From contig NC_008278.1 of assembly GCF_000058485.1 (NCBI RefSeq), forward strand, positions 1,978,962-2,042,961: a stretch of 64,000 nucleotides of DNA. Direction: 5' to 3'. The position numbers were made by a program, and so were the translations under genes. Shown one piece after another: positions 53,123-60,456 of the stretch. Numbering within the stretch: the stretch's first letter is position 1; every line of letters begins with the position of its first letter. This DNA comes from Frankia alni ACN14a (GTDB lineage Bacteria; Actinomycetota; Actinomycetes; Frankiales; Frankiaceae). A model generated the notes under the pieces. The model made no database searches, was not told the DNA's origin, and saw only the letters and a program-made list of their open reading frames with translations.

Positions 53123-55090
53123 GTGGACGACAATCCTGGCGTGGGCGAAACGGCTGGCCTCCGGCGCGGCATCCGGACGCTGACGCTGCTCGCCAGCGTC
53201 GCGATCATTGTGATGCTGGTGCTGGCCGTGGCCTCCGCCCTGCGGTCGCAGCACGCCGCCACCGAGCGGGGCAAGCACCTCGACCCCGCGGCCACGACCA
53301 CCGCGATGCTCCTCGCGGACATCGTCGATCAGGAAAGCGCGCTGCGCGGCTACATCGTCACCCGCGACCGCGGCTTCCTGAAGCCGTTCGACGACTCCCG
53401 GCGTTCGGTCCCCGCGCTCAACGCGCGGCTGGACGACCTGCTGGCCGACTTCCCCGACCTGCGGGCGCAGCGGACCCGGGTGGACGTCGCCTACGGGACC
53501 TGGCGGCGCGAGGTCGTCGAGCCGGAGCTGGCCGCGATGGCCCGCGGCGACGTGGCCGGGGCCGCCGGCATCGTCCGCGCGAACGCCCGCCGGGACTTCG
53601 ACGAGCTGCGCCGCCAGACCGCCCGCCTCGCCGGACAGATCGACCGCGAGCAGGTCGAGGCGTCCGGGCGGGTCGAGAGCTCCTCCGTGCTGCTGCTGAG
53701 CTCGCTGGCCAGCGCGATGTTCGTCATCCTCGGCGTCCTGGTGACGATCATGATCGTGCTGCGCCGCTGGCTGCTGCGCCCGATCGGCGCCCTGCAACGG
53801 TCGGTCAACTCCGTGGCGGCCGGGCGTTACGACACGCGGATCCCCTCGGTGGGCCCGGCGGAGATCGTGGCGCTGGCGGCCGACGTCGAGACGATGCGCG
53901 CCCAGCTCGTGCGCCTCGTGCGGCAGAACGAGCGGTCCTGGGAGGCGCTGGCGCAGCAGGGGCCCGCCGTCATCGCCCTGCGTGACGCGCTCACCCCCTC
54001 CCTGCTGCGCGCCCGCGGGCTGATGCTGCACGGGCGGGTCGACCCGGCCCAGGGGGAGCTCGCGGGGGACTGGTACGACGCCTTCGAACTGCCCGACGGG
54101 CGCGTCGCCGTGGTCGTGGGCGACGTCTCGGGCCACGGCGCCGCGGCGGGCGTCTTCGCCCTGCGGCTCAAGCAGCTCCTCGACGCCGCACTGTCCACCG
54201 GCGCCGGGCCGGCCGCCGCGGTGGAATGGGCGGTGGAGAACCTCGGCGAGACCGAGGAGATGTTCGCCACCGCCATCATCGCCGTCGTCGATCCACGCAG
54301 TGGGGAGCTGCACTACGTCAACGCCGGCCACCCGGACGCGCTGCTGCTGCGCCGGGCCGGGCCGGCCTGGGCGATGGCCGCGCCGACGACACCGCCGACG
54401 ACACCGCCGGCCATCGGTCTGGTCACGGCGCCGGCGACACCGCCGTTCGGCGCGGCCCGCCCGGCCGCGCCGCCGGCCATTCCCCGCCCGGCCGCGCCGG
54501 CCGACCCGACGCCCGTCTCCGCGGCCGACGCCAGGGCCGACGCCGCGGTGGACGTCCCGGTCGACGTCTCGGCTGACGCCGCGGAGCCGGCCCGCAGGCG
54601 GCCGGCCGGCGGCGCGGCGGGCAACGCCGGCGCCGGTGGAACCCGGCCGTCGGCGAACATCAGCGCGATCGTGGGGCCGGCGGCCGGTGCACGCCGCGGG
54701 CCGGCGAACCCGCCGCCCGCGCCGAAGGGGGGCCGCCGGCACGCCGCCGCCCAGATCGTGCGGCTGCCGCCGACGGGTCCGCTGATGTCGGGACTGCTCG
54801 CCGCGCCCGGCGCGTGGGAGATCCGGACGTTGCACCTCGAACCGGGGGACGTGCTCATCGCCTACACCGACGGGCTGGTGGAGGCACGCGACGCCGCCGG
54901 GAGCCAGTTCGGCGCGCACCGGCTGATCGCGGAGATCCTGCGTGACCCCGGCCGCACCCCGGTGGGCCTGCTCGACGACGCCTTCGACGCCGTGCGCCGG
55001 CATGCCCCGGGCCGGCAGGGCGACGACCGCACCGCGATCATCCTGGCTCGCACCAGCGAGCCGGCGACGATCACCGACGGGCGGTCGTGA
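53123..55090 (+). CDS. Membrane-bound SpoIIE/PP2C phosphatase with CHASE3-like sensor and HAMP
   Basis: About 655 residues. TM1 (LLASVAIIVMLVLAVASAL) is followed by a helical extracytoplasmic sensor of about 150 residues (DQESALRGYIVTRD is CHASE3-like), then TM2 (FVILGVLVTIMIVLRRWLL) and HAMP. The PP2C/SpoIIE domain has GELAGDWYDAFELPDGR, VVGDVSGHGAAAG, VNAGHPDALLLRRA and, after a 125-residue disordered insertion, DVLIAYTDGLVEARD and DDRTAIILAR. The metal-binding Asp residues are present. It probably dephosphorylates an anti-sigma antagonist in response to an external signal. Start is uncertain (GTG 53123 or 53141). Confidence 0.88.
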   Translation: MDDNPGVGETAGLRRGIRTLTLLASVAIIVMLVLAVASALRSQHAATERGKHLDPAATTTAMLLADIVDQESALRGYIVTRDRGFLKPFDDSRRSVPALNARLDDLLADFPDLRAQRTRVDVAYGTWRREVVEPELAAMARGDVAGAAGIVRANARRDFDELRRQTARLAGQIDREQVEASGRVESSSVLLLSSLASAMFVILGVLVTIMIVLRRWLLRPIGALQRSVNSVAAGRYDTRIPSVGPAEIVALAADVETMRAQLVRLVRQNERSWEALAQQGPAVIALRDALTPSLLRARGLMLHGRVDPAQGELAGDWYDAFELPDGRVAVVVGDVSGHGAAAGVFALRLKQLLDAALSTGAGPAAAVEWAVENLGETEEMFATAIIAVVDPRSGELHYVNAGHPDALLLRRAGPAWAMAAPTTPPTTPPAIGLVTAPATPPFGAARPAAPPAIPRPAAPADPTPVSAADARADAAVDVPVDVSADAAEPARRRPAGGAAGNAGAGGTRPSANISAIVGPAAGARRGPANPPPAPKGGRRHAAAQIVRLPPTGPLMSGLLAAPGAWEIRTLHLEPGDVLIAYTDGLVEARDAAGSQFGAHRLIAEILRDPGRTPVGLLDDAFDAVRRHAPGRQGDDRTAIILARTSEPATITDGRS

Positions 55091-55137
55091 CGCCGACAAT
55101 GGCGTGGTTACCGCGGTTTTCGGGTACATCAACGACT

Positions 55138-55842
55138 ATGAACGACGAGCCCGGCACGGACCGGCCCACCCGCTCGAACCGGACCCTGCGCTCCCTGCCG
55201 ACCCGCTTCAGCCCGCTGCGGCTGATCGCCACCATCCTGCTCGCCGTGCTCGTCGTCGGGCTGATCGCGGTGGTGGCCGGGTGGCGGCCCAGCCTCAACC
55301 CGTTCAAGGAGCGGACGATCGACCGCAGCTCGCCGGCGGTGCTGCGTTCCCTGGAGGACCTCAGCTCGTACCATGCCGCCGGCGCCCACTTCGAGGTCGT
55401 CGTCGATCTCGAGGACGACACCAAGTGGATCCCGGCGGCACTCAAGGGCGAGCGCACGCTGTTCGTGGGGGTCGGCACGGTCGACTCGACGGTCGACTTC
55501 GGTCACCTCGACGCCGATGCCGTCACGGTCTCACCGGACCGCCGATCGGTGACCATCGAGCTGCCCAACCCGACCCTGTCCACGCCGGTGCTGGACCTCG
55601 ACCACAGCTACGTCGTCGCCCGCCAGCGCGGCGCGCTGGACCGGGTCGGCGGCCTGCTCGGCGGGGTCAGCAGCGACAAGGCGCTGTACCAGAAGGCCTC
55701 GTCGAAGATGACCGACGCGGCCAGGACCGACGGCCAGGTCATCGAGCTGGGCAAGAAGAACACGACCGCCATGCTGCGCGGTCTGCTGGGCGCGCTGGGC
55801 TTCACCGACGTCCGCGTGACCTACGCCGCCGACCGCCGCTAG
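55138..55842 (+). CDS. DUF4230 single-pass membrane protein
   Basis: A 234-residue protein. One helix (LIATILLAVLVVGLIAVVAGW) is followed by an extracytoplasmic DUF4230 domain (SPAVLRSLEDLSSYHAAGAHF, in parts; KWIPAALKGERTLFVGVGTVD, in parts; GFTDVRVTY at the end). The function of the family is unknown. A GTG at 55087 would overlap the preceding stop, but the intervening codons have low third-position GC. That argues for the ATG at 55138. A strong hairpin follows. Confidence 0.82.
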   Translation: MNDEPGTDRPTRSNRTLRSLPTRFSPLRLIATILLAVLVVGLIAVVAGWRPSLNPFKERTIDRSSPAVLRSLEDLSSYHAAGAHFEVVVDLEDDTKWIPAALKGERTLFVGVGTVDSTVDFGHLDADAVTVSPDRRSVTIELPNPTLSTPVLDLDHSYVVARQRGALDRVGGLLGGVSSDKALYQKASSKMTDAARTDGQVIELGKKNTTAMLRGLLGALGFTDVRVTYAADRR

Positions 55843-55929: not shown

Positions 55930-58755
55930 TCAGCGCCGAGCCGCCTGCTCGGCCACCACCCGGTCGATCTCCGCCTGGAAATGCTCGGAGATCTTTATGA
56001 CGTGCGGTTCCCGAAGCAGATAAAAATGTTCACAAGGGACGTAGTGCGTGTCGTGGCTGCCGGTGAGGAAGGCCGACCACGCGTCCGCCGAGTCCGGATT
56101 CTCGGCCGATCGGTAGACGAGGGTCCGGCCGGCCCACGGCTGCGGCCGGTAGAACCGCTCGAGCAGCCTGCCGTGATTGAAGAAGACGTCAAACTGCTCC
56201 ATTCCGCCAAACTGCACCACGCCGGTCAGCGGAATCTGCACCATTTTTTTGAGCGTCGCGATGTTGGTGAAGTTCGCCCGCTGTTCCGGCAGCAGCCGCT
56301 GGGTGAAGCGGGCCAGGCGGTGGCGGTAGGCGCGGGCGTGCTCCTGCGCTCCTCCGGGCGCCGTCGGCGCGTCGACCGCGGTCGCGGTCTCGGCGGCCGG
56401 CACCGCGCCGTCCTCCTCACCGGGCGCGATCCGTAGGGAGGACGGCATGTAGGTGTCCATGATCGACAGGAAACCGACCTCGTCGCCGGCCGCAGCGAGC
56501 TGCTGGGCGATCTCCATTGCGATCAGACCGCCGAGGGAGTGCCCGGCCAGCAGGTAAGGGCCCCGCGGCGCGATGATCCGGATGATCTCCAGATGGCGGC
56601 GGGCGGTCTTCGCCACGCTCCAGTCGGGGAAGCCACGCCGTTCCAGCCCGTGCGCCTGGAAGGCGTAGACCGGCTGGTCGTCGCCGAGCCGGCGGGCCAG
56701 CGAGTGGAAACCGAGCGCGAGCGCGCCGGCTCCGGCGAAGCAGAACAGCGGCGGGCGCGAGCCGGTGGTGCGCAGCGGCACAACGGTCGGGTGGCGGGGG
56801 CCGGCCTGCTGGGCCAGCGAGACCGTCCGGGCGAAGGCGCCGAGCGTGGGGGAGTCGACCAGGGCCGACGAGGGCAGGGACACCCCAAGCTTCTCGCCGA
56901 CGAGGGTGAGCAGCTCGTTGGCGGCCAGGGAGTCGCCGCCGAGCTCCATGAAGTCGTCCTCGATCCCCACCTCCTCGAGGTCCAGGACCCGGGTCCAGAT
57001 GTCGGCGACGACGATCTCCCACTGGGTCCGCGGCCGGGCGGAGCCGGCGGGGGCCGCGGGCGGGGGCGGCAGGGCACCGCGGTCGACCTTGCCGCGCTCG
57101 TTGCGGGGCATCTCCGCCAGCGCCACGATCGTCGTGGGCACCATCCACACCGGCAGCCGTTCGCGCAGCGCCCGGCGGATGCGCACCGGGGACAGCGTGT
57201 TGCCGTGCACCGCCGGGACGACGTAGGCGACCAGGCGGTTCTGTGACCCGGTGGTCACCGCGGTGACCACCGCCTCGGCGATCTCCGGGGAGTTCAGCAG
57301 GGCCGCCTCGACCTCGCTCGGCTCCACCAGGTACCCGCGGATCTTCACCGCGGCGTCGCGCCGGCCGAGCAGCACCACCGTGCCGTCGGGCTCGAAGCGG
57401 CCGAGGTCGCCGGTGCGGCAGGTGGTCCGGCCGTCCGCGCGCGGGGTGAACTTCTCCGCCGTCAGCTCCGGGCTGCCCCAGTAGCCCGCGGACAGGTACG
57501 CCGAGGTCACCTCGACGTCGCCCGACTCGCCGGGCCCGGCGATGGAGCCGTCCTCACGGCGGAACACCACCTCCTTGCCCGGTGCGGGCAGCCCCGCCGG
57601 CACGGTGCCCGCGGGCACCGGCGCGTCGGGGGGGATCTCGAAGAAGCCCAGCGAGGCGATCTCGGAGGCACCCGACCAGTTCACGTAGGTACACGACGGC
57701 GGCACGTGCGGGCGCAGCGCGGCGATGTCGCGGCCGTACGCGGCCTCCCCGCAGGTGGTGACGATCCGCAGGTCGGCGAGGACCTCGTCCGGTCCGAGCG
57801 CGCCGAGCAGCGCCCGCAGCAGCGACGGGGTGGTCTGCAACGCCGTCAGCTGCTGGGAGTTGATCCAGTCGCCGAGACCGGCCAGCCCCGCCGACCGCGG
57901 GTCGTAGGCGTAGAGGCCCGCGCCGTTGAGCAGGCCGAACACGACGACGGTGATCCCCGCCGCGAACGAGTACGGCAGCACCAGCGCCAACCGGTCGCCG
58001 GGCGCGAAGCCGAGGCGCTGCGCGCCGGCATAGGCGTCGCACAGGAATGTGCCGTGGCTCCACACGACGCCCTTGGGTGCGCCGGTGGAGCCGGAGGTGA
58101 ACACGATGCAGGCCGGGTCGGTGAGCTGCGGCTCGGGCCACCAGACCGCGTCGGCTCCGTTGGCGGCGATCCACTCGGCGCCGTCGCTGGCCGCGGCCGC
58201 GAGGTCCAGCACCAGCCGGGGACCGTCGCCGGCCAGCAGCTCCAGCAGCGGCTTCGGGTCGACCGACGCCGCGGCGCTCGCCTGCGCATCCGACGATCCC
58301 ACCGGCCGCAGGCCCACCGCGGAGCGGGCCACGGAGCCGTCGCTCAGGTCGGTGATCAGCGCGACGCAGCCGGCCTGACGGATGATCTGAGCCATCCGTC
58401 CCGCCGGCACCATCGGATCGAGCGGGACGACGGGCCGGCCGGTCTTCATCGCCGCCAGGACGCCGAGCAGCCCCGGGACCCCGTGCGGCAGCAGCGTCGC
58501 CACCGGGCCGTCCTCGGTTGCGTCGAGGCGCCCCAGCACGGCCACCGCGATGTCGTCCGTGCGGCGGTCGGCCTCGGCGAACGTCATCGCGACGCCCGGG
58601 GACACCACCGCCGGGGTGTCGGGCAGGTGCGCGGCGACCTCGCGGAACCGGCTGACCACCGAAGCCGGTAGATCATCGAAGTCCAACGCGGGGAAGGGGA
58701 TGTCACCCCCGGGCGTCGCGACCGCCAGAGCCGCGCGCCGATCGCTCTCGTTCAA
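55930..58755 (-). CDS. NRPS-like A-T-TE enzyme (no condensation domain)
   Basis: 941 residues. The adenylation domain (about 20-545) has A3 FTSGSTGAPKG, A5 NWSGASEIAS, A7 TGDLGRFEPDG, A8 KIRGYLVEPSEVE and A10 NERGKVDR with its Lys. The carrier domain (about 570-640) has the phosphopantetheine Ser in ELGGDSLAANEL. The type I thioesterase (about 665-935) has GHSLGG, MDTY and CEHFYLLRE. At A4 the usual Asp that holds an alpha-amino group is missing (PYSFAAGITVVV), so the substrate is probably a carboxylic or keto acid. A-T-TE proteins of this kind (ralfuranone or atromentin synthetases) dimerise aryl-pyruvates. Start TTG 58755 has AAGGAG 5 nt upstream. Confidence 0.88.
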   Translation of the reverse strand: MNESDRRAALAVATPGGDIPFPALDFDDLPASVVSRFREVAAHLPDTPAVVSPGVAMTFAEADRRTDDIAVAVLGRLDATEDGPVATLLPHGVPGLLGVLAAMKTGRPVVPLDPMVPAGRMAQIIRQAGCVALITDLSDGSVARSAVGLRPVGSSDAQASAAASVDPKPLLELLAGDGPRLVLDLAAAASDGAEWIAANGADAVWWPEPQLTDPACIVFTSGSTGAPKGVVWSHGTFLCDAYAGAQRLGFAPGDRLALVLPYSFAAGITVVVFGLLNGAGLYAYDPRSAGLAGLGDWINSQQLTALQTTPSLLRALLGALGPDEVLADLRIVTTCGEAAYGRDIAALRPHVPPSCTYVNWSGASEIASLGFFEIPPDAPVPAGTVPAGLPAPGKEVVFRREDGSIAGPGESGDVEVTSAYLSAGYWGSPELTAEKFTPRADGRTTCRTGDLGRFEPDGTVVLLGRRDAAVKIRGYLVEPSEVEAALLNSPEIAEAVVTAVTTGSQNRLVAYVVPAVHGNTLSPVRIRRALRERLPVWMVPTTIVALAEMPRNERGKVDRGALPPPPAAPAGSARPRTQWEIVVADIWTRVLDLEEVGIEDDFMELGGDSLAANELLTLVGEKLGVSLPSSALVDSPTLGAFARTVSLAQQAGPRHPTVVPLRTTGSRPPLFCFAGAGALALGFHSLARRLGDDQPVYAFQAHGLERRGFPDWSVAKTARRHLEIIRIIAPRGPYLLAGHSLGGLIAMEIAQQLAAAGDEVGFLSIMDTYMPSSLRIAPGEEDGAVPAAETATAVDAPTAPGGAQEHARAYRHRLARFTQRLLPEQRANFTNIATLKKMVQIPLTGVVQFGGMEQFDVFFNHGRLLERFYRPQPWAGRTLVYRSAENPDSADAWSAFLTGSHDTHYVPCEHFYLLREPHVIKISEHFQAEIDRVVAEQAARR

Positions 58756-59034
58756 TGCCACTCCTTGTCCTCTGTGCTGCCGGCGCCATCGATCCGTGAC
58801 AGATGACCCTCGACCACGTGCACTCGCCGATCGTGGGATCGTCAGTCGCGCGCGATCGGGCGGTCCGTCGGAAACGCCCCGAGGGGCCGTCGCCGCGGCG
58901 ACGGACGGGCGGGGCTGTCGGCGGGATGCCGCCTGACGGGAGTGGGTCGTTCTGGGCGACCCCGCCAAGGAAACACGTGCGGCGCTGCAACCGTTCGCTC
59001 GAGGTACACGAACAGCCTCCCCAGCATGCAGTCC

Positions 59035-59717: not shown

Positions 59718-59838
59718 AACTGTGAACGACGGACGGGCTGAAAGCGAAGGCGGCTCGGCGAAGGATCGCCGGGATGCGCCTCGAGGCGGCCCGGTCCGCC
59801 GTGGCACCCAGAGATCGATCGAGACGAGGGAGGCCCTT

Positions 59839-60456
59839 GTGAGCACCTACCTGTGGGACCCGTTCGCGGCGCTGGGGCGGATGGACCGGGAGTTCGACGA
59901 GATCGTTCGGCGCGCGTGGGGCACCCGCCGCCCGGCGCTCGCCGGCCGCTCCTCGAGCGCGGAGCTCGCCGTTCCCTCGGCCGACGTCGTCACCGAGGGC
60001 GAGGATGTGCTGATCAACCTCGAGCTGCCCGGGGTCGACGTGGAGCGTGACGTGGTCGTCGAGATCGACCGCGGCCGCCTGGTCGTCCGCGGTCAGCGCG
60101 GCGGGCAGCGCGAGCAGGAGCGCGCCGGTCGTGTCCACCGCGAGAGCTGGTCCGGCAGCTTCCGCCGGGAGTTCCGGCTCCCCGAGCGGGTCGACGCCTC
60201 GCGGATCTCCGCGGGCTACGACCGGGGCGTGCTGACCGTCCGGCTCGCGGGCGCTGCGGCCGAGCCGAAGGCGACCCGCATCGCCGTCACCGCGGCGAGC
60301 GGCGACCACAAGCCGACCTCCGTGGTGCAGCCGACCTCCGTGGTGCAGCCGGTCGACGCGGCGAAGGCGGTCGACGCGGCGAAGCCGGCCGGCGTCGCGA
60401 AGCCGGCCGAGGTCGCGCCGACCCAGCCCGGCGAGGTTCCGACCGCGTCGGCGTAG
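59839..60456 (+). CDS. hsp20: Hsp20-family small heat-shock protein
   Basis: A 205-residue ATP-independent holdase chaperone. The alpha-crystallin domain (about 40-140) is complete: VPSADVVTEGEDVLINLELPG (in parts), VEIDRGRLVVRGQR, SFRREFRLPERVD and YDRGVLTVRLA, with the conserved G-L-T motif. The GTG at 59839 has GAGGGAGG 5 nt upstream. The upstream HAIR-like site predicts HspR repression relieved by heat. The C-terminal tail is built of PTSVVQ x2 and (V/A)DAAKP-like x4 hexapeptide repeats instead of the usual short I-x-I tail. Confidence 0.93.
   Translation: MSTYLWDPFAALGRMDREFDEIVRRAWGTRRPALAGRSSSAELAVPSADVVTEGEDVLINLELPGVDVERDVVVEIDRGRLVVRGQRGGQREQERAGRVHRESWSGSFRREFRLPERVDASRISAGYDRGVLTVRLAGAAAEPKATRIAVTAASGDHKPTSVVQPTSVVQPVDAAKAVDAAKPAGVAKPAEVAPTQPGEVPTASA
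60313..60423. repeat. 18-bp tandem repeats in the hsp20 tail
   Basis: Two identical copies of CCGACCTCCGTGGTGCAG (60313-60348) are followed by four degenerate 18-bp units (60352, 60370, 60388, 60406) encoding VDAAKA, VDAAKP, AGVAKP and AEVAPT. All are frame-neutral. Confidence 0.88.

Follow-up and report, generated by a model that had tools for sequence, protein, structure and literature searches.

Among the described systems closest to the gene considered here are adenylation-carrier-thioesterase (A-T-TE) enzymes such as RalA, EchA and TdiA, which condense aryl keto acids according to the accessible sections of PMC5523082, PMC9047271 and PMC9379647; Val at code position 1 is given as the marker of alpha-keto-acid enzymes in the accessible part of PMC10316625. 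Another reference point is the rare building block 3-amino-5-hydroxybenzoate (AHBA), the precursor from which ansamycins and mitomycins are made according to the part of PMC8788734 available to us. We analysed a window of 64,000 nucleotides of Frankia alni ACN14a (G000:C1:1978962-2042961, G000 being a genome of 7,497,934 bases in a single contig), in which a coding sequence at 55930..58755 on the minus strand specifies an A-T-TE protein of 941 amino acids from a TTG start. This gene is best explained as encoding an aryl-acid synthetase that stands alone and belongs to a little-studied A-T-TE family of actinobacteria; its substrate would be a small aromatic acid, most likely AHBA. With a probability of about one half, the protein would be an AHBA-activating enzyme acting in trans, whose TE domain links AHBA with an acceptor or with another AHBA.

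Domain architecture and substrate pocket

Pfam matches, each above cut-off, follow one another in the order AMP-binding (172.6 bits), AMP-binding_C, PP-binding and Thioesterase, and no condensation domain is found among the matches of the 941-residue protein. This bears out a preliminary description of the window, which had announced an A-T-TE enzyme without condensation domain. On the minus strand, the large part of the adenylation (A) domain (PF00501) spans 57478..58647, the AMP-binding C-terminal subdomain, with the A10 lysine K556, 57088..57315, the carrier (T) domain, with its phosphopantetheine Ser609 (56929-56931), 56824..57009, and the thioesterase (TE) domain, with the triad Ser740 (56536-56538), Asp767 (56455-56457) and His910 (56026-56028), 55984..56754. 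The carrier serine and the triad are invariant in an alignment of 11 rows (11/11); A, T and TE stand in one chain with their catalytic residues intact, as in known A-T-TE enzymes related to nonribosomal peptide synthetases (NRPS). The TTG at 58755 is supported as the start, because an AAGGAG ribosome-binding site (58761..58766, minus strand) lies 5 nt upstream and because all 13 orthologues of the genus have TTG or GTG as the corresponding codon, behind a purine-rich stretch similar to that of the window.

The A4 stretch PYSFAAGITVVV (57940..57975, minus strand) places A265 (57961-57963) on the Asp of LgrA that binds the alpha-amino group, as aligned with HMMER. Ala occupies this position, 235, in 16/16 direct orthologues (clade I), and Asp is missing there in every family row of our pocket table, to which the window's own genome also contributes the A domains L001, L003, L007 and L008, out of eight tried. 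The loss of this Asp, which the preliminary description had reported, is thus confirmed, and no displaced Asp, the outcome that it had named as speaking against its view, is found within the A4 stretch. The protein hence lacks the residue expected of an A domain for alpha-amino acids. The idea of a substrate without alpha-amino group is well supported by the replacement of Asp235 across the whole family, unlike the furanone or quinone product that had been attached to it.

By overall similarity, the A domain is of the NRPS type, and the solved relatives most similar to it activate amino acids. A 52-row tree places it elsewhere: the family is monophyletic, with full support, against four NRPS rows. 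This tree omits L003 and L007, two NRPS of the window's genome, includes some long branches from outside Frankiaceae, and does not resolve how clades I, IIa and IIb+IIc branch from one another.

By the GrsA numbering and the motif rules in general use for A-domain pockets, the pocket of the window protein, assigned by motif, consists of A265, A266, T269, Q307, T333, C335, W360, S368 and L369 (AATQTCWSL), the last three (57649..57678, minus strand) corresponding to positions 322, 330 and 331. Code position 1 is therefore Ala, in 16/16 clade I rows, instead of the published Val, which leaves unsupported the earlier proposal that the protein is, in the manner of RalA, EchA, TdiA and AtrA, an aryl-pyruvate (alpha-keto acid) synthetase that dimerises its substrate to a furanone or terphenylquinone. 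The comparison of substrate-lining residues with these enzymes, suggested at the same time, goes through the published rule only and opposes Ala to Val. Such a function is rather improbable, even though the A-T-TE layout is identical and keto acids are plausible elsewhere in the family: in six loci, one of them in the window's genome, a clade IIb paralogue adjoins a flavin mononucleotide (FMN)-dependent alpha-hydroxy-acid oxidase of the lactate dehydrogenase family (L051:5332-9621, L052:6548-10555, L056, L062, L124 and L126). This vicinity suggests a keto-acid substrate for clade IIb, which probably differs from that of clade I, as their pockets share an identity of 0.00; the neighbourhoods of other relatives point to amino-hydroxybenzoates.

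A non-aromatic acid, such as a beta- or omega-amino acid, a hydroxy acid or a short acyl group, is a quite improbable substrate. A domains for such acids can also miss Asp235, and a beta-aminoacyl-ACP synthetase is found among the distant solved relatives; against this, the neighbourhoods of the clade IIa relative and of the family member at locus L099 are aromatic. An AlphaFold2 model based on ten orthologues has a mean predicted local distance difference test score of 38.5 and a predicted template modelling score of 0.25, and was not used.

Proposed link with AHBA biosynthesis

Relatives were searched in 58 genomes, among which g2, the sister genus, g3 and g6 designate other genera. In 6/6 g2 genomes, the clade IIa A-T-TE gene adjoins genes that we take, from our own reading of the sequences supported by Pfam and NCBIfam, to be RifG-like (aminodehydroquinate synthase), RifI-like, RifN-like (ROK kinase) and RifM-like (phosphatase). 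Genes for a RifL-like protein, an AHBA synthase (RifK-like) and a RifJ-like dehydratase are on the same stretch in five of the six, the sixth stretch (L120) beginning within the RifM-like gene. The best model support goes to the RifM-like gene, of which L122:3949-4590 scores 342.5 bits, for a cut-off of 246.65, with the NCBIfam model "AHBA synthesis associated protein". The roles of these genes in the pathway are those reviewed in PMC8788734, as far as its accessible part goes.

The pocket of clade IIa is also the one that clade I resembles. Over the nine positions, the mean identity between clade I of the genus and clade IIa is 0.74, compared to 0.00 with IIb and 0.02 with IIc at an equal A-domain identity of 0.43-0.44. 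The window protein shares 7/9 residues with the IIa pocket AATHTSWSL, and W, S and L at 322, 330 and 331 are constant in 16/16 clade I and 7/7 clade IIa rows; a second IIa copy of G028 (L061) is kept as a row, this genome being counted once.

The occurrence of AHBA synthase follows the same line: it is found in 13/13 genomes of the window's genus and 6/6 of g2, and in 0/16 other genomes of the family (0/8 g6, 0/5 g3, 0/3 from single-genome genera). Among 393 genomes of the class, 24 have it, 19 of them being those of the window's genus and g2, and five lying among the remaining 358. The 19 AHBA-positive Frankiaceae genomes divide into 13 with clade I only, six with clade IIa only, none with both and none with neither, and this reciprocal occurrence is the pattern of one enzyme swapped for a paralogue. 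In the four genus genomes read (G000, G003, G008 and G010), the AHBA genes form a locus of their own that contains no A-T-TE gene. The set of G000 looks complete (G000:C1 ~982.7-989.5 kb; L138:17684-18124 to L139:5149), and the interval from 793,993 to 1,302,240 of this genome is free of AMP-binding matches. About 4.5 kb past this set, we observed a gene for a flavoprotein resembling tryptophan halogenases (L139:9683-11329), with a look-alike in G010 (L141:7988-9634).

A third element is an MsbA-like ATP-binding cassette (ABC) exporter, whose gene directly follows the clade IIa A-T-TE gene in 5/6 g2 genomes. Its orthologue is matched in 13/13 genomes of the window's genus with 71-78% identity (G000:C1:414151-416139) and, in the two whose surroundings were read (G000 and G010), it is located away from the A-T-TE gene as well as from the AHBA genes.

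Several observations weigh against AHBA as the substrate. In the window's genus the A-T-TE gene is unlinked to the AHBA genes, the cluster being ~1 Mb away, and the co-occurrence counts are not independent, as they are confounded by shared descent. Three g6 genomes (G021, G027 and G032) keep clade I, with the pocket AATHTCWSL, and have no AHBA synthase. They also lack any gene of the type II dehydroquinate synthase (DHQS-II) family PF01959, so that 3,4-AHBA was rejected as the substrate that would account for this exception. Two g6 genomes devoid of clade I (G030 and G033) have the exporter too, and it was found neither in G027, which has clade I, nor in the g2 genome G031. A dedicated class II 3-deoxy-D-arabino-heptulosonate 7-phosphate (DAHP) synthase of the RifH type was not seen, each of the eight Frankiaceae genomes tried having a single class II copy; the DAHP synthase step can be ensured by the own enzymes of E. 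coli (PMC8788734, accessible part). As to the pocket, positions 278, 299 and 301 vary within the genus, and some of the likeness between clades I and IIa may be ancestral, because other branches reach 0.52 (L057) and 0.50 (L098) with clade I. Finally, the A domains that load AHBA in ansamycin biosynthesis, read as those sharing a contig with an AHBA synthase outside Frankiaceae, have an unrelated pocket in 5/5 cases (four SLAALGAGI and one SLGALGAGI), with which clade I shares an identity of 0.02.

Loaders of this ansamycin type (at least 58% identity) are absent from 11/13 genus genomes. They are present in G001, G007 and four of the six g2 genomes (G019, G022, G025 and G028), with 58-77% identity to the loader of G363, and in these four g2 genomes the loader shares its contig with an AHBA synthase that is not part of the A-T-TE cluster. 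A separate observation concerns G010, whose genome of 5.4 Mb has two DHQS-II (PF01959) genes (G010:C1:5022049-5023155 and 2433797-2434885), absent from the 14 other Frankiaceae genomes tried.

The same facts could be accounted for if the enzyme activated hydroxybenzoate, benzoate, phenylacetate or a similarly simple aryl acid, for instance to acylate a lipid such as a hopanoid, with the IIa match inherited from a common aryl-acid ancestor. We consider this unlikely, while taking it seriously: clade I persists in the three genomes without AHBA synthase, W322 is common to L055, L057, L098-L102, L104 and L106, whose neighbourhoods are varied, and a BenE benzoate transporter is encoded close to L097. 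Against it, the IIa pocket match is closer than that of any branch outside clade I (0.74 versus at most 0.52), and the 13/6/0/0 reciprocal pattern is left without explanation. As to the lipid, phenylacetate esters of hopanoids reportedly occur in Frankia; a literature search on such esters gave nothing, PMC8951365 and PMC12501873 not bearing on the idea in their accessible parts.

A core gene of Frankia and its family

Clade I is present in 13/13 genomes of the window's genus, including one of 5.4 Mb, with 81-100% identity, an occurrence far beyond chance, and in three of the eight g6 genomes (the three named above) with ~60% identity, at the same place. The ratio of nonsynonymous to synonymous substitution rates (dN/dS) is 0.16-0.22 over eight pairs. 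The A-T-TE gene is thus shown to be a vertically inherited core gene of Frankia under purifying selection. A decaying or inactive NRPS remnant, which the lack of local partners and the existence of a degraded relative in the same genome could suggest, is very hard to reconcile with this dN/dS, with catalytic residues that are all invariant and with retention in 13/13 genomes, the smaller one included. The degraded relative (L146:6981-8291, G000:C1 ~822 kb) is a T-TE relic that has kept the TE motif GHSFGG and lost the carrier Ser and the A domain; it adjoins open reading frames (ORFs), named by eye, resembling oxidoreductases of the luciferase-like monooxygenase type and short-chain dehydrogenases/reductases, as in clade IIc loci.

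Around the gene, the window contains HSP20, exonuclease, RibD_C, DUF4230, SpoIIE/CHASE3 and ABC genes and no adjoining tailoring gene, in agreement with the preliminary description. The DUF4230 gene (55087..55842, plus strand) is the convergent neighbour and is adjacent in 15/15 other clade I loci read; the HSP20 gene (59722..60456, plus strand) is the divergent one and is present in 12/15, two of the remaining three loci being cut by short contigs. In 3/3 g2 loci read, HSP20 and DUF4230 are ~0.5 kb apart with no A-T-TE gene between them. Because they are paired there without it, they were ruled out as functional partners and are rather markers of the site.

Within Frankiaceae, the paralogues of clade I have ~39-44% identity to it, and most fall in groups IIa, IIb and IIc; nine loci (L039-L047), from duplicates of genomes already included, are omitted from the family alignment. 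Outside Frankiaceae, rows were drawn from the 393 class genomes, of which 34 matched at E <= 1e-120, and ten A-T-TE ORFs were read. Among the family members, that of L099 is surrounded by genes of the 3-amino-4-hydroxybenzoate type, with a DHQS-II gene, an aldolase gene and a gene similar to 4-hydroxybenzoate 3-monooxygenase. The first two resemble BagC/FevH and BagB/FevI and score below the cut-offs of those models. This locus would represent a second, separate association with amino-hydroxybenzoates within the family.

Other features of these loci were noted. The A-T-TE ORFs L099:5858-9736 and, judged by eye, L100:4951-8955 have in frame a long, hydrophobic N-terminal part resembling a membrane protein, for which no Pfam family was identified in L099. 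A link with exopolysaccharides, considered from this part and from L055, which is beside a sugar transferase, was dropped because no Pfam flippase is found in the N-terminal part of L099 or in L055:10874-12214. Finally, a type I polyketide synthase (PKS) gene is oriented divergently to the gene of a family member whose N-terminus looks like a membrane anchor (L101:3-4871 and L102:1-4575), the PKS assignment being checked by Pfam in L101, over the ~1600 amino acids read.

Proposed function and known systems

If AHBA is indeed the substrate, the A domain would adenylate AHBA supplied by the cluster located elsewhere on the chromosome, and the T domain would carry it as a thioester on Ser609. The TE domain would then accept it onto Ser740 and hand it to an acceptor that attacks through an amine or a hydroxyl. 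This acceptor could be: (i) a second AHBA, giving an oligo-amide or a depside, self-joining being the simplest option because AHBA has both an amine and a hydroxyl, or (ii) another small molecule. The product might be exported by the MsbA-like transporter (G000:C1:414151-416139). As likely precursor genes and an exporter lie at other loci, the earlier suggestion that the enzyme may make a small product unaided is probably incomplete.

More tentatively, Frankia and the AHBA-positive g2 could share an undescribed core metabolite: a dedicated A-T-TE enzyme would activate AHBA, join it and release it, and the MsbA-like transporter would export the product. The three parts of this system would form one cluster in g2 and three loci in Frankia (13/13 genomes), with the A-T-TE gene swapped for a paralogue, and the product would occur throughout this genus of nitrogen-fixing plant symbionts. 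If true, this would extend the use of AHBA beyond polyketide loading and mitomycins, define an actinobacterial A-T-TE family for amino-hydroxybenzoates and give Frankia a core metabolite that can be tested for. A survey of natural-product genes in actinomycetes, published in 2013, describes a Frankia secondary metabolism almost without overlap between strains and lists four conserved clusters; the words AHBA, ansamycin and hydroxybenzoic are absent from its main text. PMC5765111, by its accessible part, deals with Micromonospora. No description of AHBA in Frankia was found in the open-access literature by title or beginning of abstract, and an earlier notice elsewhere is possible.

Among known systems, the polyporic acid synthetases EchA/DatA of Streptomyces, RalA and the fungal TdiA/AtrA share with the window protein the A-T-TE order and the absence of both a condensation domain and Asp235. 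They are set apart by the published rule, from which their Val at position 1 is taken: the window protein has Ala there, and its relatives are linked to amino-hydroxybenzoate supply. The AHBA loaders of ansamycin PKS, of the rifamycin type, have in common with it the proposed substrate, the AHBA synthases being 74-80% identical. They differ by their pocket SLAALGAGI and A4 stretch LFHSLSHI, compared to AATQTCWSL and YSFAAGIT in the window protein, which has in addition an attached TE and no PKS modules. The systems synthesising 3,4-AHBA, BagB/BagC and FevI/FevH, to which GriI/GriH also belongs as a 3,4-AHBA system, compare through homologous synthase genes, below the model cut-offs, that adjoin the L099 member, a relative, and not the window gene. 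A likeness in the handling of AHBA exists with mitomycin biosynthesis, where MitE reportedly activates AHBA onto the carrier MmcB, outside any PKS; MitE and MmcB are said to be separate proteins without TE fusion, whereas the window gene unites A, T and TE in a single chain.

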